Positions 38,907 to 49,339 of a DNA stretch of 49,339 nt are shown piece by piece; the stretch's first letter is position 1, and each line of letters begins with the position of its first letter. A program made the position numbers and the translations under genes. Under the pieces are notes generated by a model. The model did not search any database. It worked only from the letters and a program-made list of their open reading frames with translations, and was not told the origin of the DNA. This stretch comes from Dehalococcoidia bacterium (lineage in GTDB: Bacteria; Chloroflexota; Dehalococcoidia; DSTF01; JACRBR01). The stretch is from positions 32,772-82,110 of the forward strand of contig JBBDXD010000023.1 of the NCBI GenBank assembly GCA_040902535.1, in the 5' to 3' direction.

Positions 38907-38983
38907 CCCAGGGTAGCCAAGTGGCCTAAGGCAACGGTCTGTAACACCGTGTATCGCTGGTTCGAATCCAGCCCCTGGGACCA
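38907..38983 (+). tRNA. tRNA-Tyr (anticodon GTA), class I shape, CCA encoded
   Basis: Cloverleaf: acceptor CCCAGGG / CCCTGGG, D stem GCC / GGC, anticodon stem ACGGT / ACCGT with loop CTGTAAC (anticodon GTA), variable loop GTATC (5 bases), T stem GCTGG / CCAGC with loop TTCGAAT, discriminator A and encoded CCA. The anticodon gives Tyr. The short variable loop and C1-G72 pair differ from the usual bacterial tRNA-Tyr, which has a long variable arm and G1-C72. It is the likely attachment site of the integrated element to the right. Confidence 0.9.
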
Positions 38984-39978: not shown

Positions 39979-41097
39979 TCATCCTAGCAGGGCATCGAAC
40001 GCATCCGCGGCCTGCCGCTGCATCGTGGGCGTGACGTGCGAGTACAGATCGAGCGTCGTGCTGATGCGCGTGTGGCCGAGCATCTCCTGCACGATCTTCG
40101 CGTGGATGCCCTGTTCGAGCAGGAGCGTCGCGGCGCTGTGGCGGAGGTCGTGGAAGCGCATACGGGGCAGCCCGGCGTTCTTGAGCAGCGGCTCGAATGA
40201 CCGCTTGAGCAGGTTGCCTGCGGCGATCGGCTTGCCGACCTCGTTCGCGAACACGAGCTCGTTGTCTTCCCACGCGGCGCCGATGCGAAGCCGCTCCTCC
40301 TTCTGCGCGACCCGATGCCGGCGGATCGCCTCGACGGTCCGGGCCGGCAGAAGCACATGGCGTCGCGAGCCTCGCGTCTTGGTCTCAGCGAATCGCAGCC
40401 CATCCTTGGTCGCCTGCATCGTCCCGCGGATCTGGATGCTGGCTCGGTCGAGGTCGACATCCTTCCAACGCAGCCCGAGCAGTTCACCTTGCCGCATGCC
40501 AGTCGTCAGGGCCATGACGTACAGCGCTTCCAGACGACTCCCCTCCGCAGCGGCCAGTAGCGCGGATGCCTGGCGAGCGGAGAGCGTAGTGATCTCGTAG
40601 TGGCCGACCCTTGGCGCGTCCACGAAGTCGGCGACGTTGCGCTGCACGAGGTTCCAGCGCACGGCCTGCTTCAAGGCTCGGTGAAGCATCGCGTGGAGGT
40701 GATGGACTGTGGTCGATGACAGCCGCTCTTCAATCTTCTTCGAGTAAAGGCGCTGGAGGTGGAGCGGGGTGAGGTTCGTCAGCTGGACCTTGCCGATCTC
40801 CGGCGTGACGTGTAGCCGCACGAGCTGCTCGTAGCGGTCCCACGTCCGGACGCGGAGAGATGGCTTCGATGCGTTGAGCCACCGTTGCATGAACTGCGCC
40901 ACGGTCTGACGTTCACTGATGACCGGCAGCCCGTCGTCCTGTCCCTTGAGCGCGGCGCGGAGCTTGCGGGCGACCTCGTCGCGATCCTTGTTCAAGAAGT
41001 GCTTTCGATCACCGCTCGGCAGACTGATCGACGCCGACCACCGACCGTCGCTCTTGCGGAAGTAAATCGAGCCTTCGCCATTCGCTCGTTTAGCCAT
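39979..41097 (-). CDS. int: Phage-type tyrosine recombinase/integrase
   Basis: 372-residue integrase. N-terminal AP2-like/arm-binding strand region (GEGSIYFRKSDGRWSASISL), SAM-like core-binding domain (QTVAQFMQRWLNASKPSLRV) and the catalytic domain with Arg in TTGMRQGELLGL, HDLRHSAAT, LGHTRISTTLDLY (His and the nucleophile Tyr). All catalytic residues are present. It probably integrates the element into the tRNA-Tyr gene. ATG 41097 overlaps the end of the upstream gene by 8 bp, so both are co-transcribed from the divergent region at 42227-42317. Confidence 0.95.
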   Translation of the reverse strand: MAKRANGEGSIYFRKSDGRWSASISLPSGDRKHFLNKDRDEVARKLRAALKGQDDGLPVISERQTVAQFMQRWLNASKPSLRVRTWDRYEQLVRLHVTPEIGKVQLTNLTPLHLQRLYSKKIEERLSSTTVHHLHAMLHRALKQAVRWNLVQRNVADFVDAPRVGHYEITTLSARQASALLAAAEGSRLEALYVMALTTGMRQGELLGLRWKDVDLDRASIQIRGTMQATKDGLRFAETKTRGSRRHVLLPARTVEAIRRHRVAQKEERLRIGAAWEDNELVFANEVGKPIAAGNLLKRSFEPLLKNAGLPRMRFHDLRHSAATLLLEQGIHAKIVQEMLGHTRISTTLDLYSHVTPTMQRQAADAFDALLG

Positions 41098-42226
41098 GCT
41101 GATTCTCCAGTCTCTGTAGAAATGACGTGTAGTCGGGGAACATGATGAACCGCAGCGCACTCCAATAGTCACGCGCGAAGTTGCGCACGTTCTTATAGGT
41201 CCAGGCCGGATAGCGAGCGTTCCATTCATCCATGAGCACACGCCAGCTTGGTATCTCCAGGTTTTCATCGGTCTCCGACGTGACTAGTCGGAAAAGTGCG
41301 AGCCGGCGCGCGCTAATTGGGCGATTTTCTCTACCCAGGAATCGTCGCTGCGCCTTCTTGTACATTGCAGCGACACTTGCCGCAGAGACCCACGGTTCGA
41401 TCTGCAACTCGATTTGGCCGGAGTTGGCAAAGCTGCTCCACTTAATGGTGGAATTAGACTGCATCGGGACCGTGCGGGGCCGCTCACCGGTCAGGACAAA
41501 CCAAGTTGCATCACCCTTCTGCCATGGCAGAGGCTGAAGCGTTGTTGCTGTTCGACGTAGCCGGTCGAGCACCGATCCGTTGAACACCGTCGTCTCGTGC
41601 CGCATGCCCTTGAGACGAAACTCGAGGACGTAGTTTCCCGGCATCCCTTCCCAGAACGTTCCTACATCCTTCAGAAGATGCTCGAATTCAACCTGGACAT
41701 TCGGTGGACTGATGCTCAACACCGCGCAATATCTCTCGCCGCGGACGTAATCTTGCGATAGCACCTCGCTGTCGTGGACGAGCGGGATGCCATGCCGCTC
41801 GAACTCGACTGGTGTGAGCATGCGCGCAGCGCTGGAGTTCAATAGGCCCCTGGCATCCTGCTCACTGAGAAGGTGCCCTCCGAGGACATCGTGTCGAAAC
41901 GCGCGCACCTCAGGCAGGCTCGCCGCGTATTTGGCGTAGTACTCGGACATCGCCAGAGCGCGCTCCGATTCATACGCCGAAAGTGCTGGCTTCTGCGACG
42001 CCTCACCGCTGCGAACGACGCGAGCGCGGCGGTGTTGCATGGACTTCGACGAAAAGACTTGGAGGAGCCGCGCGGCGCGGCGCGCGAGATCATCGCGTCC
42101 GTTGTCATCGCTGACGTTCAGGAAACCGTCATCCCGGAGCAGGGACCATACGGCATCCGGGACGTCGCGCCCGAGCTTTTCGCCTACCCAACTGCGCAGT
42201 TCGCTCTCGTCCAAAACCGTCCTCAT
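41090..42226 (-). CDS. Unknown element protein co-transcribed with the integrase
   Basis: 378 residues, start ATG 42226 (GGTGG upstream; ATG 42241 is also possible). Soluble, no signal peptide. The N-terminal 60 residues resemble a small helical domain (ELRSWVGEKLGRDVPDAVWS). The middle is mixed alpha/beta (CAVLSISPPNVQVEFEHLLK). The C-terminal part (WRVLMDEWNARYPAWTYKNV, then RNFARDYWSALRFIMF) has a W..WN..YP..TY...RNF.RDYW pattern. I do not know a named family. Its position next to int suggests a role in integration control, immunity or defence. Less GC-rich than the host genes. Confidence 0.75.
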   Translation of the reverse strand: MRTVLDESELRSWVGEKLGRDVPDAVWSLLRDDGFLNVSDDNGRDDLARRAARLLQVFSSKSMQHRRARVVRSGEASQKPALSAYESERALAMSEYYAKYAASLPEVRAFRHDVLGGHLLSEQDARGLLNSSAARMLTPVEFERHGIPLVHDSEVLSQDYVRGERYCAVLSISPPNVQVEFEHLLKDVGTFWEGMPGNYVLEFRLKGMRHETTVFNGSVLDRLRRTATTLQPLPWQKGDATWFVLTGERPRTVPMQSNSTIKWSSFANSGQIELQIEPWVSAASVAAMYKKAQRRFLGRENRPISARRLALFRLVTSETDENLEIPSWRVLMDEWNARYPAWTYKNVRNFARDYWSALRFIMFPDYTSFLQRLENQHG

Positions 42227-42317: not shown

Positions 42318-42515
42318 ATGGAAGAACGGCTTCTACTTACCGTCAAGGAGGCGGCGCAGCGTTTGGCGCTGGGACGCTCTGCGACATACGCCCTGATCCA
42401 GCGCGGCACGCTCCCCTCCTTGAAGGTCGGCGGTTCCCGAAGAGTGGCGGTGGCCGACCTCGTGGAGTTTGTCGAGCGGCTGCGATCTGAAATCCGGAGC
42501 GACGAGGGCGCGTGA
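42318..42515 (+). CDS. Excisionase-like helix-turn-helix protein
   Basis: 65 residues of the MerR-like/excisionase DNA-binding family (HTH_17): LLTVKEAAQRLALGRSATYA, then LIQRGTLPSLKVGGSRRVAV, then a helix. This is a complete single winged-helix domain. It is divergent from int and directly upstream of the primase; the stop overlaps the next start (TGATG). Likely roles are excision directionality factor or early-gene regulator. Confidence 0.88.
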   Translation: MEERLLLTVKEAAQRLALGRSATYALIQRGTLPSLKVGGSRRVAVADLVEFVERLRSEIRSDEGA

Positions 42516-44749
42516 TGGCTGACCAGGAACGTGAGATCATCGCCGCGATTGAAGAGGCCATTGCGTCGAGGCAACCGCGGCGCGAAGGGCGCGAGACCCG
42601 TTTCCTGTGCCCAGCCCACGACGACCACTCGCCCTCGGCACGCTGGCATCCCGAGAAGCACGTATGGTGCTGCGACGCCTGTGGCGCGGGCGGAGGGTAC
42701 GTCAACCTTGCCGAATTGCTCGGCGTTCCGCACTCACAACGCGGCGGACTATCGGTTGCGGAGCTCGCCGACGCCAAGGGACTCTCGGAGAAGTTCCTCC
42801 GCGATCTCGGTGTCACGGACGGCATCGTCGGCGCCAGCCGGACTCCATGCGTGGACATCCCCTACGACGACCGCACCGGCGAAGTGATCGCGGTCCGAAA
42901 GCGTCTCAACCTCAAGGGCGAGCATCGTTTCTCGTGGAGACGCGGCGACCATCCCTACCCCTACGGCCTGTGGGCAGTGCGGGAAGCACGCGAGCGCACG
43001 AACTACCTCCTCTTTGTTGAGGGAGAGTCCGACACGTGGGTCTGCAAGCGGGCAGGCGTGACCGCCGTCGGGATTCCCGGCGCTTCCACCATGAAGACGG
43101 ACTGGGCGCCTCTGTTCGAGGGAATCCCGCATCTGTTCGTCTGGCAGGAGCCAGGACCCGCTGGCATCACGTTCGTGGAAAAGGTCGCCGCGGCACTCCC
43201 CACGGTCCAGGTCATCACCGCCCCCGTCGACGCCAAGGACGCGGCAGACCTGTGGCTCGTCTGCAACCGTGATGCCGACGAGTTCCAGGCCCGCATCGCT
43301 GAACTCGCTCGGAGCGCGCCATATGTGTCCGCGATCAAGGCCGACACCTCACGACAGGACGCCAGGGAGTCGCTCGCCAAGGCGTGGGATCTGTTTCTCG
43401 CGCCGGATCTTCTTGCGAAGGTCGAGACCGCCATGCGCGACTTGGGCTACGCCGGCGACACCAAGCCTCCGATGCTCGCGTACGTCGCGCTCACATCGCG
43501 GCTCCTTCGTCGGCCGCTCAACCTCGCGTTCGTCGCACCGTCGGCGGCGGGGAAGAATCGTGCCATCGATGCTGCCTTAGCGTTGATGCCGGAGTCCGCC
43601 TACTACCTGGAGAAGGCCGGCTCCGCCCGCGCGCTCATCTACAGCGACGCCTCCTACGAGCACCGCGCTGTCGTCGTTGCGGAGGCCGACTCGTTGCCCA
43701 ACGACGACAGTTCCGCCGCATCGGCGGTTCGGTCACTCGCGGCCGACAACGAAATGACCTACGACGTCGTCGAGAAGGACAGCAAGGGTGAGTTTCATGT
43801 CCGGCGCATCACAAAGCCCGGACCCACCGGGCTCGTCACGACCTCCACGCGGCCGCTTCCGCACCAGTTCGACACCCGCACCCTGACCGTCACCGTTGCC
43901 GACACACCGGGACAGACGCGCGACGTCATGCGGGCTCACGCCGCGACGTTGAACGGTCTTGTTGCCCTGCCGGATGTCTCCGACTTCGTCGCTCTGCAGC
44001 GATGGCTGGAACTCGAAGGAAAGCGCGAGGTGCTTGTGCCATTCGCGCCGGCGCTCGCCGAACTGGTTCCCGCAGATCACGTTCGGATGCGGCGTGACTT
44101 CCGCCAGCTCCTCACCACAGTCGAGACGATGGCCATTCTGCACCAGCAGCAGCGTGAACTGGACGCAGACGGACGGATCGTAGCCACGCTGGACGATTAC
44201 GAACATGCGCGGACGCTTCTGATGGACGTCTTCCAGGCGGCGTCCAGCGCCGGCGTCACGCCCCAGGTTCGTGAGACGGTCGAGGCCGTGAACCGCATCG
44301 CCGACGGCGTGTCCCTGACAAAACAGGCCATCGCGGACGCACTCAAGCTTTCAAAGGACACGGCGTGGTACCGCATCAAGCGCGCAATCTCGCTCGGCCA
44401 CCTCATTAATGATGAAACGCGGAAGGGGAGGCCAGCCCAGATCCGCCCCGGAGACCCGCTGCCGGAGGATCGCCCTGCGCTTCCCACCGTCGAGGAGTTG
44501 TCTGCGTGTGTGTCACGGCACCCCGCAGTCGATTCAACCGTTCAACCGCGCCGGACCCTCGAAGCGGAAGGCGAATCTGGAAAGGTGGTTGAATCCGTGG
44601 TTGAAAGCGGCATTCAACCGCACGTTCAACCTGACCGCGCACCCGCGCCAGATTCACCTGCTCGGACTGCCGTCGCCGTGGTTGAACGGTTGAACGGCGA
44701 TCCCGGGAGTCTACACACACCTGACGGTCGCGAGGTGATGGAGATATGA
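42515..44749 (+). CDS. Phage/plasmid-type primase-helicase (CHC2 zinc finger, TOPRIM, ATPase)
   Basis: 744 residues. A DnaG-type zinc-binding domain at the N-terminus uses Cys32, His35, Cys53 and Cys56 (CPAHDDHSPS and CCDACGAGGG). A TOPRIM-like domain follows (about 165-255; LLFVEGESDTWVC, then VKDAADLW-like text as DAKDAADLWL). An ATPase domain has a Walker A-like VAPSAAGKNRAID (about 340-352) and an acidic Walker B VVVAEADS (about 384-391). Near the C-terminus SLTKQAIADALKLSKDTAWY is a helix-turn-helix, then a Pro-rich tail. It should prime and perhaps unwind element DNA during replication. ATG 42515 overlaps the HTH gene stop. Confidence 0.85.
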   Translation: MADQEREIIAAIEEAIASRQPRREGRETRFLCPAHDDHSPSARWHPEKHVWCCDACGAGGGYVNLAELLGVPHSQRGGLSVAELADAKGLSEKFLRDLGVTDGIVGASRTPCVDIPYDDRTGEVIAVRKRLNLKGEHRFSWRRGDHPYPYGLWAVREARERTNYLLFVEGESDTWVCKRAGVTAVGIPGASTMKTDWAPLFEGIPHLFVWQEPGPAGITFVEKVAAALPTVQVITAPVDAKDAADLWLVCNRDADEFQARIAELARSAPYVSAIKADTSRQDARESLAKAWDLFLAPDLLAKVETAMRDLGYAGDTKPPMLAYVALTSRLLRRPLNLAFVAPSAAGKNRAIDAALALMPESAYYLEKAGSARALIYSDASYEHRAVVVAEADSLPNDDSSAASAVRSLAADNEMTYDVVEKDSKGEFHVRRITKPGPTGLVTTSTRPLPHQFDTRTLTVTVADTPGQTRDVMRAHAATLNGLVALPDVSDFVALQRWLELEGKREVLVPFAPALAELVPADHVRMRRDFRQLLTTVETMAILHQQQRELDADGRIVATLDDYEHARTLLMDVFQAASSAGVTPQVRETVEAVNRIADGVSLTKQAIADALKLSKDTAWYRIKRAISLGHLINDETRKGRPAQIRPGDPLPEDRPALPTVEELSACVSRHPAVDSTVQPRRTLEAEGESGKVVESVVESGIQPHVQPDRAPAPDSPARTAVAVVERLNGDPGSLHTPDGREVMEI

Positions 44750-45321
44750 GCGCCACCTCGCTGGTGCGAAGTCTTGAGCGAAGAGGCGTGCGGCTTCAGG
44801 CGGTGGACGACCGTCTGGTAGTGGACGCGCCCCGCGGCGTGCTGACCGACGACGTCAAAGAGGAGTTGCGCGCGCAAAAGTCGGAAGTGCTACGGATCGT
44901 GCGCGAGGGACGGCCCTTGGCCGAACTGGCCGCGGACCGGCTTCCGAGCATCCGCTTCACGATCCGCGAAACCGGCGACACGGAACGGGACTTCGACCTC
45001 ATTGGCCGCGTTCGCCAGGTGATCGAGGAGTTCCAGCCCGGGGGCAACCACATCTACCTGACCATCGTCACCCTCGACCAGCGGCGCGTCGTGGTTGAGT
45101 GGCGCGCAGTCGCCGATCGCGAGCTGCGGCTTGGAATCGGCCACGTCCTCGCGCGTGGCGGCTGCGTGTGCGTGGCCACATTAGACCTGGGGGGTGTCGG
45201 TGAAGCCCGGAGCGAAGCCTCTGCCGACAAACGTGAAGCGGCTGCGGGGCACGCTGCGCAAGCACCGGATGCGCGGCGACGAACCCGACGTCGTCTCGGA
45301 CATCCCGACGTGCCCGCGTGA
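44746..45321 (+). CDS. TubC-like docking-domain protein of the element
   Basis: 191 residues starting in ATGA overlap with the primase gene. Residues about 5-50 (LVRSLERRGVRLQAVDDRLV, then VLTDDVKEELRAQKSEVLRI) match the TubC N-terminal docking domain known from hybrid polyketide/peptide synthases and also found in mobile elements beside primases. The middle (IRFTIRETGDTERDFDLIGR) is a separate small domain. The last ~40 residues are basic, low-complexity and overlap the next gene by 128 bp, so the true end may be shortened by a sequencing frameshift. Likely a protein-interaction adaptor for the replication apparatus. Confidence 0.7.
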   Translation: MSATSLVRSLERRGVRLQAVDDRLVVDAPRGVLTDDVKEELRAQKSEVLRIVREGRPLAELAADRLPSIRFTIRETGDTERDFDLIGRVRQVIEEFQPGGNHIYLTIVTLDQRRVVVEWRAVADRELRLGIGHVLARGGCVCVATLDLGGVGEARSEASADKREAAAGHAAQAPDARRRTRRRLGHPDVPA

Positions 45322-45691
45322 ACTGAGCAAGACGGCGAAGCGCGAATGGCGCCGCATCGCGCCGGAACTGGCGCAACTGGGGCTGCTCGCCCGCATCGAC
45401 CGCGCCGCGCTCGCGCTCTATTGCGATGCGTGGGCACGCTGGTGCGAAGCCCAGCAAGCGCTCCAGAAGTACGGCGTTGTCGTGAAGTCGCCGAACGGCT
45501 TCCCGATGCAGAGCCCGTACCTGGCGATCGCGAACAAGGCGCTCGACCAGATGCGCCTGTTGCTTGGGGAGTTCGGCATGTCGCCGTCGAGCCGCACGCG
45601 CGTGAGCGCCGTGCCACAGGTGGAGGAGGACGAGTTCAGCGAGTTCGAGCGGCACCGGGACCGACGGGCGAGCGGGGGCACCCTGATTTGA
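45194..45691 (+). CDS. Phage terminase small subunit, P27 family
   Basis: 165 residues. Sequence KPLPTNVKRLRGTLRKHRMR near the N-terminus, CPRELSKTAKREWRRIAPEL and WARWCEAQQALQKYGVVVKS, then NKALDQMRLLLGEFGMSPSS, is the typical layout of the P27/phi105 small terminase family, which recognises phage DNA for packaging. The GTG start (45194, or 45200) lies after a G-rich stretch. A large terminase gene is not immediately downstream as usual; the ParB-methyltransferase comes first. Confidence 0.88.
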   Translation: MSVKPGAKPLPTNVKRLRGTLRKHRMRGDEPDVVSDIPTCPRELSKTAKREWRRIAPELAQLGLLARIDRAALALYCDAWARWCEAQQALQKYGVVVKSPNGFPMQSPYLAIANKALDQMRLLLGEFGMSPSSRTRVSAVPQVEEDEFSEFERHRDRRASGGTLI

Positions 45692-45829
45692 AGTCAAAAC
45701 GATCGCGAACGCGCAGCGCTCTGCTACCGCGGCTGCGCGCCGGCATCCGCCATGAGCGGCCTGCCGACCCGAACGAACAGACCACGCGACGGTGGGCTTC
45801 GAGGAGTACAAGCGGAGCTTGGAGGTTTG

Positions 45830-47065
45830 ATGAAGACAGAAACGCGGATGCAGATCGCGCACGTCCCGATCGACGACCTGAAGCCCGACCCCGCGAACCC
45901 GCGCCGGATCTCCGACGACGAGCTGGAGGCGTTGACGCGCAGCCTCCGCGAGTACGGCTTCGTGCAGCCGGTGCTGGCGCGGCGGGAGGACATGACGGTG
46001 ATCGGCGGCCACCAGCGCCTCACCGCCGCCCGGCGTCTGGGCATGAAGGACGTGCCGGTGATCTTCCTCGACGTTACGCAGGAGCAGGCGCGCGTCCTCA
46101 ACCTCGCGCTCAACAAGATCAGCGGGGCCTGGGATGAGGAGCTGCTGGCGCGGATGGTCGCCGACCTCTCGTCGATCGAGGCTGTCGACCTGAGCCTCTC
46201 GGGCTTCGACGAAGACGAGCTGGACGCGCTGCTCAAGAGCCTGGACGTGCGCGAGCGGCGCGAGAAGCCCGAGGCCTTCGACGTGGACGCGGCGCTGGAG
46301 GCGGCACGTGCCGCGACACGCGCCAAGCCGGGCGAGCTGTGGGCGTTGGGCGACCACCGGCTCCTGGTGGGCGACGCGGGCGACACGGCGGCCGTACAGC
46401 GGCTCCTCGACGGCAAGCGGGCGCCGATGTGCTTCACCGACCCGCCCTACAACGTCGCGCTCGGCGACCACGGCGGCCAGCAGCGCGGGCAGAAGAAGAG
46501 ACGCATCCAGAACGACGCCATGCCGAACGAGCAGTGGGAGACGTTCTGCCGCGGTTGGACGCGCAACCTCCTCGCCAGCGTGGACGGTGCGATCTACTGC
46601 TGCATGTCGTCGAAGGAACTGCCGCTCGTCTCGCGCGTGCTCGAAGAGGAGGGCGGGCACTGGTCCGACACGATCATCTGGCGCAAGGATCGCTTCACGC
46701 TCGGCCGCGCCGACTACCAGCGACAGTACGAACCACTCTGGTACGGCTGGCGCGAGGGCGCCAAGCACCAGTGGCACGGCGGCCGCGACCAGGGCGACGT
46801 GTGGGACGTCGAGCGCCCGTCCGAAAGCGCAGCACATCCGACCATGAAGCCCCTGCCGTTGATCGAACGCGCGATGGAGAACTCGTCCTCACGCGGCGAC
46901 GTCGTGCTCGACCTGTTCCTCGGATCGGGTAGCACGATCATCGCCTGCGAGCGCACAGGACGCGTCTGCTACGGCACGGAACTTGACCCGCACTATGCGA
47001 GCGTAGTGATCGCCAGGTGGGAAGCGTTCAGCGGCAGGGAGGCGCAGTGCCTCAGCCGTTCGTGA
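45830..47065 (+). CDS. ParB-like nuclease domain fused to a DNA methyltransferase
   Basis: 411 residues. Residues about 8-95 form a ParB N-terminal-like domain (HVPIDDLKPDPANPRR, VQPVLARREDMTVIGGHQRL with the GxHR-type motif). A helical bridge follows. Residues about 185-405 are an amino-methyltransferase with the catalytic DPPYN (about 203-207) first and the AdoMet loop DLFLGSGST (about 362-370) last, i.e. beta-class order. It probably methylates adenine-N6 or cytosine-N4 in element DNA, perhaps against host restriction. ATG 45830 has GGAGG four bases upstream. Confidence 0.9.
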   Translation: MKTETRMQIAHVPIDDLKPDPANPRRISDDELEALTRSLREYGFVQPVLARREDMTVIGGHQRLTAARRLGMKDVPVIFLDVTQEQARVLNLALNKISGAWDEELLARMVADLSSIEAVDLSLSGFDEDELDALLKSLDVRERREKPEAFDVDAALEAARAATRAKPGELWALGDHRLLVGDAGDTAAVQRLLDGKRAPMCFTDPPYNVALGDHGGQQRGQKKRRIQNDAMPNEQWETFCRGWTRNLLASVDGAIYCCMSSKELPLVSRVLEEEGGHWSDTIIWRKDRFTLGRADYQRQYEPLWYGWREGAKHQWHGGRDQGDVWDVERPSESAAHPTMKPLPLIERAMENSSSRGDVVLDLFLGSGSTIIACERTGRVCYGTELDPHYASVVIARWEAFSGREAQCLSRS

Positions 47066-47532
47066 TCACGAAGGACGGACGGGGCGCGCAGATGCACGTG
47101 CGGCGGCGAGACACGGGTGAGTGCATCGGCTGCATCGAGGCCGGCCTCTACGAAGTCGTGCGCGCGGTGATCGAGGAAGAGGTAGCGGCCCCGACCGAAG
47201 AGGGCATCCAGGTCGGGGCCGCTAGGAAGGCGATGGTAGTGAGTCGTTGGGTCTATTCCTCGTCCTCCTCGCCGTCAAGCGACCGCAGTTCCTGCTCGAT
47301 GATGTCGCGCTCGAACTGTCCGAGCCAGCCGCCGCCGCGACCCTCGAACGCGGCGAGGCAGTACGCGTTGATGCGAGTGTTGCCGATGGCGCGCAGGAGC
47401 ACGGCGATCTCGTCCATCTTTTCCAGTACCCCTTCGAGGACGTCGCGTGTGTCGTCGTCGTTCATGGTCGCTCCTTTCGCGGAGCCATACATCACTCTGT
47501 GCGGAAACGAAGTCAACGGAGTCCAGAGATGA
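47047..47532 (+). CDS. Small hypothetical protein, 3' part doubtful
   Basis: The GTG start overlaps the end of the methyltransferase gene. The first ~60 residues look natural (VPQPFVITKDGRGAQMHVRR, CIGCIEAGLYEVVRAVIEEE). After about 47240 the frame becomes Ser-rich and lies antisense to the small gene at 47253-47465. A 14-bp perfect hairpin at 47183-47224 interrupts the end of the natural part. The real protein may end near there after a frameshift. Function unknown. Confidence 0.4.
   Translation: MPQPFVITKDGRGAQMHVRRRDTGECIGCIEAGLYEVVRAVIEEEVAAPTEEGIQVGAARKAMVVSRWVYSSSSSPSSDRSSCSMMSRSNCPSQPPPRPSNAARQYALMRVLPMARRSTAISSIFSSTPSRTSRVSSSFMVAPFAEPYITLCGNEVNGVQR
47183..47224. repeat. 14-bp perfect inverted repeat TAGCGGCCCCGACC ... 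GGTCGGGGCCGCTA
   Basis: Very GC-rich 14-bp stem with a 14-base loop, between the methyltransferase gene and the convergent minus-strand gene. No T-run. It may be a bidirectional terminator or a protein/DNA-processing site. Confidence 0.7.
47253..47465 (-). CDS. Small acidic element protein
   Basis: 70 residues: MNDDDTRDVLEGVLEKMDEI at the start, then INAYCLAAFEGRGGGWLGQF and an acidic end (DGEEDEE). AGGAG lies five bases before ATG 47465. It is driven by the left one of two divergent, nearly identical promoters (47488-47516). It has the size and charge of small phage regulators or anti-restriction/DNA-mimic proteins, but no family is recognised. Confidence 0.6.
   Translation of the reverse strand: MNDDDTRDVLEGVLEKMDEIAVLLRAIGNTRINAYCLAAFEGRGGGWLGQFERDIIEQELRSLDGEEDEE
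47488..47516 (-). promoter_or_regulatory. Promoter of the small acidic gene (left copy)
   Basis: On the minus strand: TTGACT, 17-base spacer, GATGTA. It lies in one arm of an inverted duplication whose other arm carries the right promoter. The shared stretch continues to the ribosome binding site (GCGAAAGGAGC). Confidence 0.6.
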
Positions 47533-47576
47533 ACAAGCCGACGCTGCACAATCGCTCCGGACGGCAGGAACAGCCG

Positions 47577-47605
47577 TTGACTTCGTCGCGGAGCGGAGCG
47601 ATGTA
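47577..47605 (+). promoter_or_regulatory. Promoter of the RAMA/zinc-finger gene (right copy)
   Basis: TTGACT, 17-base spacer, GATGTA, within CCGTTGACTTCGT (47574-47586) that is the exact reverse complement of 47507-47519. It drives the gene starting at 47659, which has the same GCGAAAGGAGC ribosome binding site as the left gene. Confidence 0.6.
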
Positions 47606-47658
47606 TGCGCTCGCCAACGAAGGTGCCCCTGGCGAGGGCGAGCGAAAGGAGCGGCGAG

Positions 47659-48123
47659 ATGCCGATCGAGAACAGGACCTTGGAAGCGGGGACGCGCCTC
47701 GTGGCGCGTCACAAAGGGAAGGAGTTCGTCTGCGAGGTCGTGCAGACGGACGAGGGGCTGCGGTACCGGGTGGACGGGAAGGACTTCAACAGCCCGTCGT
47801 CGGCGGGCCGCGAGGTGACGGGCGGCGTCGCGGTCAACGGCTGGCGCTTTTGGTCGCTCGAAGGGACGCTCAAGGAGCGGGCGCCGAAGGCCGCGAAGGA
47901 GCGCAAGCCCAAGATCGACAAGCCGGCGAAGAAGACGGCGAAGACCAAGAGCGCCAAGACCGTGAAGCCGAGGGCCAAGAAGGGCGCGAAGAAGGGAGCC
48001 AAGAAGGCCACGAAGAAGGCGGCACAGACGGCGAGCCACGATTCGTACGGGTGCGGCGTCTGCCCCGAGACGTTCCCGACGCTGAAGGCCGCGACCAAGC
48101 ACGCAATGACGCACACGCAGTAA
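47659..48123 (+). CDS. RAMA-like domain, histone-H1-like tail and C2H2 zinc finger fusion
   Basis: 154 residues. Residues about 7-72 (LEAGTRLVARHKGKEFVCEV, then DGKDFNSPSSAGREVTGGVA and GWRFW) match the RAMA/DUF2924-like domain linked to DNA modification systems. Residues about 76-128 are a Lys/Ala/Thr-rich tail with KKGAKKGAKKATKKA, as in bacterial H1-like and HU-tail proteins. Residues about 131-153 form YGCGVC...F...H...H with spacing C-x2-C-x12-H-x3-H, the classical (eukaryote-type) C2H2 zinc finger. AGGAG lies upstream of the ATG. It may bind and perhaps sense modified element DNA. I know of no named protein with this exact order. Confidence 0.8.
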   Translation: MPIENRTLEAGTRLVARHKGKEFVCEVVQTDEGLRYRVDGKDFNSPSSAGREVTGGVAVNGWRFWSLEGTLKERAPKAAKERKPKIDKPAKKTAKTKSAKTVKPRAKKGAKKGAKKATKKAAQTASHDSYGCGVCPETFPTLKAATKHAMTHTQ

Positions 48124-48353
48124 CCCGCCTCCAGAACGACGCGCTCCTTGCGGGGCGTGTCGCTCTCTCTCCTGCGATCGCGGCGCTGCCGCCGCGCATC
48201 GCGTACCGCCGCGAAGTAGCGCTATCGACGCAGGAAGACGAGCGCATCCCGCTCGCACTCATCGACGCGATCATCGCCGACGCGGGACCGTCACTATCGC
48301 TGGATAGCCACCGACTACCAGAGCGCGAGCCTAGCAGAGGTAGCGAATGGTAG
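48051..48353 (+). CDS. Possible small overlapping gene
   Basis: A frame that starts at GTG 48051 inside the preceding gene and ends in an overlap with the next start (ATGGTAG). The part after 48124 looks protein-like (LQNDALLAGRVALSPAIAAL, then EDERIPLALIDAIIADAGPS), but no good start codon or ribosome binding site supports it. Otherwise the 48124-48346 spacer would be empty. Confidence 0.25.
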   Translation: MRRLPRDVPDAEGRDQARNDAHAVTRLQNDALLAGRVALSPAIAALPPRIAYRREVALSTQEDERIPLALIDAIIADAGPSLSLDSHRLPEREPSRGSEW

Positions 48354-48745
48354 GGTCGCGCGCCTGTTCCGCCCCTACCAAGAACGGCGAAGCCTGCAGC
48401 GCGACGCCCATGCACGACAGCCCGTTCTGCTTCTGGCACTCGCCGGAGCACGTCGAGGAGGCGGCGAAGGCGCGGAGCCTCGGCGGCCAGCGACGGCGGC
48501 GGGAGTCCACGCTCGTGGGCGCCTACCACATGGAGCCCCTCGACACGGTGAGGGGCGTCCGGCGCGTCCTGGAGATCGCGACCTTTGATGCCCTGGGCAT
48601 GGAGCAGTCCGCCAACCGCATCCGGCTGTTGATCTCGGCGGCGACCGTCGCCGGCCGGCTCCTGCAGGCGGCCGACCTGGAGCAACAGGTGAAGGAGATC
48701 CTGGCGATCCTCAAACCCCGCGACCAGCGGAAGGGACGCCGGTGA
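48347..48745 (+). CDS. Phage protein with Cys/His zinc-ribbon-like N-terminus
   Basis: 132 residues. The N-terminus has CSAPTKNGEACSATPMHDSP followed by FCFWHSPEH, a Cys-Cys-Cys-His set common in small actinophage and Chloroflexi phage proteins encoded near terminase genes. It is followed by a helical region (TVRGVRRVLEIATFDALGME, NRIRLLISAATVAGRLLQAA) similar to DNA-binding small subunits. The stop overlaps the next start (GTGA). Perhaps a packaging or replication accessory factor. Confidence 0.75.
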   Translation: MVGSRACSAPTKNGEACSATPMHDSPFCFWHSPEHVEEAAKARSLGGQRRRRESTLVGAYHMEPLDTVRGVRRVLEIATFDALGMEQSANRIRLLISAATVAGRLLQAADLEQQVKEILAILKPRDQRKGRR

Positions 48746-49339
48746 GCGACTCGCGCCTCGACCGGATGCTGCCGCTGCTCACGCCGAAGGAGCGCGGCAT
48801 CATGACGCTCCGCGACTTCAAGGCGGGCAAGGAGCAGGACCGCAACCTCCTGCGCGCGGCGCCCGATCGACAGACGAACGAGATCAACCGCTACGTCGGC
48901 ATGATGAACGCCGCCAACGGCGACCTGGCGAACGTCATCCTCGTCATCCGCGAGCGGGCGCGGCAGGAGGAGCTGCGCTTAAACTGGTTGCGCTGGGCGA
49001 CGTTCTGCGCGCTGGAGATGTGGGCGGTGCGGGCCGCGTTCGCGATGAGCGCCCGCGAACCGATCACCGAGACGGAGTACAAGAAGAAGGAAGCCGAAGC
49101 GCGCGCAGAGCTGATCCCGCTGGACGAGTGCGCGATGCTCTACACGGAGTATCACCACAGGTGGGACGACGCCGATTACGAGACGGACGAGGACGGCAAC
49201 CAGATGCCGACCGACGAGGCCTGGTACCGGGTGCGCGACGCGAAGCTCGAAGAGATGCGCAAGGCCGCGGCCGGCGGGGTGCTGAGCGCCCCGGGGAAGG
49301 GCAAGCGGATGAAGATCGCGTCAGGCTCGTTCCACGACT
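48742..49339 (+). CDS. Phage protein of unknown function, truncated by the window end
   Basis: An open frame from GTG 48742, overlapping the previous stop by GTGA, runs to the last base without a stop (199 codons visible). It begins VSDSRLDRMLPLLTPKERGI, is helical and charged (QEELRLNWLRWATFCALEMW, DADYETDEDGNQMPTDEAWY) and ends in a Lys-rich stretch. No Walker motif has yet appeared, so it is not an obvious large terminase start. Function unknown. Confidence 0.75.
   Translation, partial: MSDSRLDRMLPLLTPKERGIMTLRDFKAGKEQDRNLLRAAPDRQTNEINRYVGMMNAANGDLANVILVIRERARQEELRLNWLRWATFCALEMWAVRAAFAMSAREPITETEYKKKEAEARAELIPLDECAMLYTEYHHRWDDADYETDEDGNQMPTDEAWYRVRDAKLEEMRKAAAGGVLSAPGKGKRMKIASGSFHD

Follow-up and report, generated by a model that had tools for sequence, protein, structure and literature searches.

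The locus raises the question of what a promoter-like sequence is doing twice, back to back, between two divergent genes, and whether it is peculiar to the DNA that carries it. The last 10 kb of the window (the whole stretch of DNA analysed, 49,339 nt from a Dehalococcoidia bacterium) resemble a prophage in gene content. Pfam and PHROG comparisons identified an integrase (39979-41268, minus strand), a primase (42512-44749), a terminase small subunit (45194-45691, plus strand; Terminase_4 / phrog_83) and a ParB-N6/N4 DNA methyltransferase (45752-47065, plus strand). A tRNA-Tyr gene (38907-38983) is followed by the integrase, a tyrosine integrase in convergent orientation, and this junction is a probable attachment site of the prophage. 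A gene with a TubC_N docking domain (44746-45321) lies between the primase and the terminase small subunit. The contig stops at the end of the window (G000:C23:32772-82110 of 82110; window position 49339), so that the remainder of the prophage is unseen. The left gene of the divergent pair (47253-47465, minus strand, ATG at 47465) encodes an acidic protein of 70 aa; the longer open reading frame containing this 70-aa reading has no Pfam or PHROG match, and a gene at the same position in the locus of genome G005 encodes a counterpart with 65% identity over 63 aa. The right gene (47659-48123, plus strand) encodes 154 aa with a RAMA/DUF2924-like domain and a C-terminal C-x2-C...H-x3-H zinc-finger-like segment; its start was placed at the ATG at 47659 because MPxENR is conserved in orthologues.

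An earlier note on this DNA had described three blocks matching as reverse complements, with a TTGACT-17 bp-GATGTA promoter before each gene. All three blocks are present in the order claimed. The pattern TTGACTTCG-N14-GATGTATG occurs in two back-to-back copies, 47486-47516 on the minus strand and 47577-47607 on the plus strand. The left promoter-like site, TTGACTTCGTTTCCGCACAGAGTGATGTATG, has its -35-like TTGACT at 47511-47516 and GATGTA, at the place of a -10 box, at 47488-47493; in the right site, TTGACTTCGTCGCGGAGCGGAGCGATGTATG, the same boxes lie at 47577-47582 and 47600-47605. The two 31-mers are identical at 24 of 31 positions, and the inverted arms around them (47471-47519 and 47574-47622, 49 nt) are 71% complementary. 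Both sites are exact matches to TTGACTTCGT-N13-GATGTATG, the only two in the window, and with up to 3 mismatches the window holds three matches, whereas 100 dinucleotide shuffles gave 0.00 on average. The third (41661-41691, 3 mismatches) lies within an open reading frame and looks like chance; no copies beyond the pair were found elsewhere in the host genome or in as much of the prophage as the contig contains. A second pair of arms, 12/12 complementary, corresponds to the Shine-Dalgarno block GCGAAAGGAGCG, present at 47469-47480 (minus strand) on the left and 47642-47653 (plus strand) on the right. This shared block is not special: allowing up to 2 mismatches, GCGAAAGGAGC shows no enrichment in the window (19 matches against 27.85 expected from shuffles), relatives carry other sequences at that place, and the block is an ordinary ribosome site in a generic Shine-Dalgarno region. 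Both leaders can fold beside the ribosome site, the left one (47470-47485) as GCTCC-GCGAAA-GGAGC and the right one (47608-47644) as GCTCGCC...GGCGAGC, and a GC hairpin just 5' of the ribosome site is also seen by eye in other RAMA leaders of the family. The earlier note had overlooked how far the motif extends, that its spacing is fixed, and a candidate operator at 47548-47564.

The distribution of the motif outside the window was then analyzed. The 31-bp pattern at up to 2 mismatches was found in 11 of the 99 genomes searched, the window's own genome included, with one match to the reversed control. Reading the sites of these 11 genomes gave the longer consensus TTGACTT-N12-GAGYGATGNATG, which at up to 1 mismatch is present in 21 of the 393 genomes searched from the class (zero for the reversed control among the matches listed). 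In IMG/VR it has exact matches in 82 stretches and its reversed pattern in 1. When 6-22 free bases were permitted before AGAGTGATGNATG, 61 of 72 stretches kept the same 17-bp geometry; in ten more the box at this geometry is TTGC or TTGG and an additional TTGAC stands just upstream of it, and the remaining one looks like chance. A sister class (class II), TTGCTAT-N11-AGAGTGATNNATA, is present in at least 120 stretches and is at least as common as class I, and a single phage can carry multiple copies, from either class or from both. Among species genomes (at least 119 stretches, 123 sites read) the motif was found in Dehalococcoidia, Clostridia, some Bacilli, Selenomonas and many Candidatus Gastranaerophilales; the matches in L131, L146 (Sulfurimonas), L190 (Saprospiraceae), L219 and L224 look like chance occurrences within genes. 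Many loci of different scans are the same contigs (L160 is G003:C15 and L161 is G051:C1), and counts from different scans are therefore not additive. The suggestion that the sequence is a recurring phage motif was thus borne out in other phages and prophages; the further copies envisaged within the element itself were not found in its available part.

Genes were also retrieved by protein similarity and their upstream DNA was then scored. Upstream of DNRK (amidoligase-like) genes the motif was present at up to 4 mismatches in 68 of 75 loci and at up to 6 mismatches in 72 of 75 (5 of 80 loci having been dropped before counting for too little upstream DNA or a partial match), levels reached by 0.07% and 6.7% of shuffles, respectively. 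Among RAMA relatives it was present at up to 4 mismatches in 13 of 20 loci and absent at that threshold in 7. Three of five named phage records carry it within 4 mismatches (0, 2 and 4), two do not. Most of the genes in the DNRK and RAMA query alignments were themselves flanked by the motif, and some loci are contigs of the IMG/VR scan, so that selection for the motif is removed only in part from these proportions.

The genes behind the motif are mostly phage accessory genes, serine recombinases of the large type and a Mu-like transposase, and include amidoligase-like, RAMA and gamma-glutamyl cyclotransferase-like proteins, other small accessory proteins and tyrosine integrases. DNRK is a PHROG amidoligase family, annotated as "virulence-related protein" in Streptococcus phage Javan630; since such "virulence-related" DNRK proteins and Amidoligase_2 proteins have a common C-terminal motif and the same PHROG, amidoligase-like proteins make up much of the cargo that follows the promoter-like motif. 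The commonest places of the motif are beside a methyltransferase gene and between lysis genes and recombinases; the phrog_498 methyltransferase is present in 33 of 38 viral records, all of them motif-bearing. In many loci a protein of about 150-160 aa that has an HTH at its N terminus and two zinc-ribbon-like pairs (L049:11367-11816, L057:4013-4465, L115:7833-8321) is encoded directly before the methyltransferase or serine recombinase; it belongs to a PHROG family of unknown function, and the one member scanned has no Pfam match.

The position of the motif with respect to genes was examined on non-redundant subsets of sites. A start codon with a ribosome site is found within 130 nt downstream of 88 of 98 class I and 87 of 88 class II sites; on the upstream side the proportions fall to 31 of 98 and 32 of 86. 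Class I sites lie a median of 30 nt ahead of the start codon that has a ribosome site, and an A-rich stretch is seen just upstream of the first box. Position, geometry and A-rich stretch are features of a promoter whose second box would stand at -10. Sigma-A promoters have a -35 box near TTGACA, 16-18 bp of spacing (17 being usual) and a -10 box near TATAAT, with A at position 2 and T at position 6, and transcription starts 5-9 nt after the -10. In the window TTGACT, present in both copies, is close to the -35 consensus (5/6) and the spacing is 17 bp, fixed across the class. GATGTA agrees with TATAAT at only 2 of 6 positions, and a standard sigma-70 promoter scan returned no promoter-like site in 47000-48400 because the -10 is GATGTA and not TATAAT. 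The arrangement of MerR-type promoters (a 19-20 bp spacer with a dyad operator) was not found either, the spacer being poorly conserved over the 98 class I sites.

The most serious alternative is that these are plain host sigma-A promoters with a weak -10, alike through common descent of phage modules and forming no special class. Their -35 box, spacing, upstream A-rich stretch and close downstream start codon are indeed those of sigma-A promoters, and the host polymerase is the default reader since sigma region 2 (Sigma70_r2, PF04542) was found in only 2 of 38 motif-bearing phage records, many of which may be fragments, and over cut-off in 1. We nevertheless consider this explanation rather doubtful. 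The motif differs from sigma-A promoters in having GAGTGAT instead of TATAAT, in showing no spread of spacing and in occurring nowhere else in the host genome; moreover the near-invariant GAGTGAT and the single spacing hold across genes as unrelated as those of amidoligases, serine recombinases and a Mu-like transposase, across phyla and with two -35 classes.

Several candidate readers of the motif were considered. A phage-carried sigma factor was rejected on the scarcity of PF04542; matches to the region-4-like PF08281 are common though mostly weak, at E 0.05 in 32 of the 38 records and over the cut-off in 13. Clustering the genes of 15 viral records, the window prophage and one Gastranaerophilales element revealed no universal phage-encoded reader gene, a clustering that is not exhaustive, as it missed the window's own methyltransferase, 37% identical to that of L115 by direct comparison. 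The ParB-methyltransferase, present in 33 of 38 records, was rejected in that it clustered with no gene of the Gastranaerophilales element, and the small HTH-zinc-ribbon protein in that it is not general among sites.

An action at the level of RNA was also considered: the boxes would be part of a transcript begun farther upstream, in which the N12 segment would pair with the ribosome site and hide it. Complementarity between spacer and leader in runs of at least 6 is indeed above controls, on non-redundant subsets of sites (24 of 99 class I against 9-11; 47 of 140 class II against 10-17), and hairpins formed by such pairing are found in L091, L065, L053 and L194. However, most sites lack the pairing, and no Rfam family covers the motif: 13 loci that carry it gave no match over it at gathering level, and window positions 46900-48200 gave no credible match. 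A structured RNA was rejected on these negative results, the pairing being real but restricted to a subset. In Gastranaerophilales, moreover, the motif lies at the edge of the shared sequence, which leaves no conserved upstream promoter. It may also be that the site itself is the promoter and that the pairing serves to silence read-through transcripts. A cis-acting RNA is thus an improbable explanation.

We give the same small credit to readings without a promoter, in which the motif is bound by a repressor or another regulator or serves for recombination at cassette borders. Such a role would explain that the motif marks the left edge of exchangeable modules and that its conserved part is longer than a usual -10. 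In Gastranaerophilales the gene behind the motif is a Mu-type transposase followed by an AAA/TniB-like ATPase, and only a few bases separate the motif from the left edge of the sequence common to the elements. In L194 (2101-5692) the transposase operon (transposase, AAA/TniB-like ATPase and two small genes) begins right at the motif. Directly upstream of 48 Gastranaerophilales sites the sequence is variable, partly recurring and host-like, and ends in C in 48/48 cases, mostly in AC; this Mu-type unit looks like an element with a few preferred insertion sites. No inverted right-hand copy of the motif was found in 8 Gastranaerophilales genomes, and an element end or inverted terminal repeat was rejected on this ground. 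The motif is also directional, points nearly always toward a start codon and has -35/-10 geometry, all of which speaks against a mere binding or recombination site. Finally, the two sites might be alike by chance or through duplication within a single phage, and arms 71% complementary are what a duplicate would show. This explanation is refuted by recurrence elsewhere: shuffles give 0.00 expected matches, the class is widespread, and other genomes of the family have the same pair with diverged sequence between the promoters.

We thus favor, as probable, the reading of the interval as a back-to-back promoter pair of one conserved mobile-element promoter class, jointly with the description of that class by a -35 box TTGACTT (TTGCTAT in the sister class), a rigid 17 bp and a non-standard -10 inside GAGYGATNWATR. 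TTGACTT and GAGTGATG would be the two boxes of the promoter, and host RNA polymerase with a specificity factor would start at each site. The pair would drive two accessory genes, the 70-aa acidic one on the left and the RAMA/DUF2924 zinc-finger-like one on the right. In sites with spacer-leader pairing, the ribosome site would be masked in transcripts entering from outside and not in those starting at the site.

Comparison with relatives suggests a common control of the two genes. The candidate operator ACAATCGCTCCGGACGG (47548-47564, plus strand), lying between the two promoters, is conserved in G005 and G003. The 17-bp block ACAATCKCTCCGGACGG is present in single copy in the window and, with 0 mismatches and at the same place, in G005; on four contigs of G003 it is repeated directly, with 30 bp between the two copies, and the inter-promoter gap of G003 is 93 nt against 52-60 elsewhere. 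By eye, the rest of the gap is little alike between the window's genome (G000), G005 and G003. Divergent pairs with the same operator-like block are found in G000, G005 and three G003 contigs. At 0-1 mismatch ACAATCTCTCCGGACGG was detected among 118 genomes only in G000, G003 and one G009 site, and among the loci also in G005; 2-mismatch matches in other genomes look like background. An operator as a general part of the promoter class was rejected given this confinement. In this family the 17-bp block is probably an operator common to both promoters, through which both genes would be switched together; the same timing and the same regulator, which the earlier note had derived from the likeness of the promoters, may follow. 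The left site has an orthologous copy in G005 and partner-swapped copies in G003, where the left gene comes from another family while the promoter and the RAMA gene are unchanged, as expected of exchangeable cargo. The right site also precedes RAMA-like genes in G002, G003, G005, G011 and G026.

Known systems offer partial parallels. The transposase genes of IS10 and IS50 are protected from read-through transcripts. Some motif sites similarly have a spacer complementary to the downstream leader; unlike in IS10/IS50, this concerns a subset of sites only, and the genes are phage cargo, integrase and transposase. The start-associated sequences of cluster K mycobacteriophages lie at the ribosome site and are found in one phage cluster. 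The motif resembles them as a repeated conserved element before many phage genes and differs in that its conserved part is upstream of the ribosome site and occurs in several phyla. In records of Ca. Heliusviridae/Heliusvirales, which are gut phages (PMC9226167), methyltransferase, cargo (amidoligase, gamma-glutamyl cyclotransferase) and terminase are laid out as in motif loci, and 2 of 4 named records carry the motif at up to 4 mismatches. In contrast, the window prophage is in a Dehalococcoidia host and has its terminase small subunit before the methyltransferase, with structural genes beyond the contig end. Assignment to Ca. Heliusvirales relies on terminase, portal, protease and capsid genes in common. 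The words promoter and methyltransferase are absent from the main text of PMC9226167. More generally, no mention of the motif was found by its letters or by topic in the open-access literature, to judge from which the class is apparently undescribed.

Taken on its sequence features, this is a real and conserved promoter-like class of which the window pair is a divergent instance, with a function that we infer. A broader proposal, which we hold only tentatively, is that the non-sigma-A -10 is read by a conserved factor and defines a cross-phylum regulon of otherwise unrelated mobile elements. Its members would be accessory genes, serine integrases and a Mu-like transposase, carried by elements of Dehalococcoidia, Clostridia, some Bacilli and Gastranaerophilales. 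The motif serves as a sequence tag from which accessory and integration genes of many uncultured phages can be predicted, and it suggests a start signal common to these two kinds of phage genes. It also raises the question of which polymerase factor, with a range that takes in Dehalococcoidia, Clostridia and gut Gastranaerophilales, would recognize GAGTGAT instead of TATAAT.
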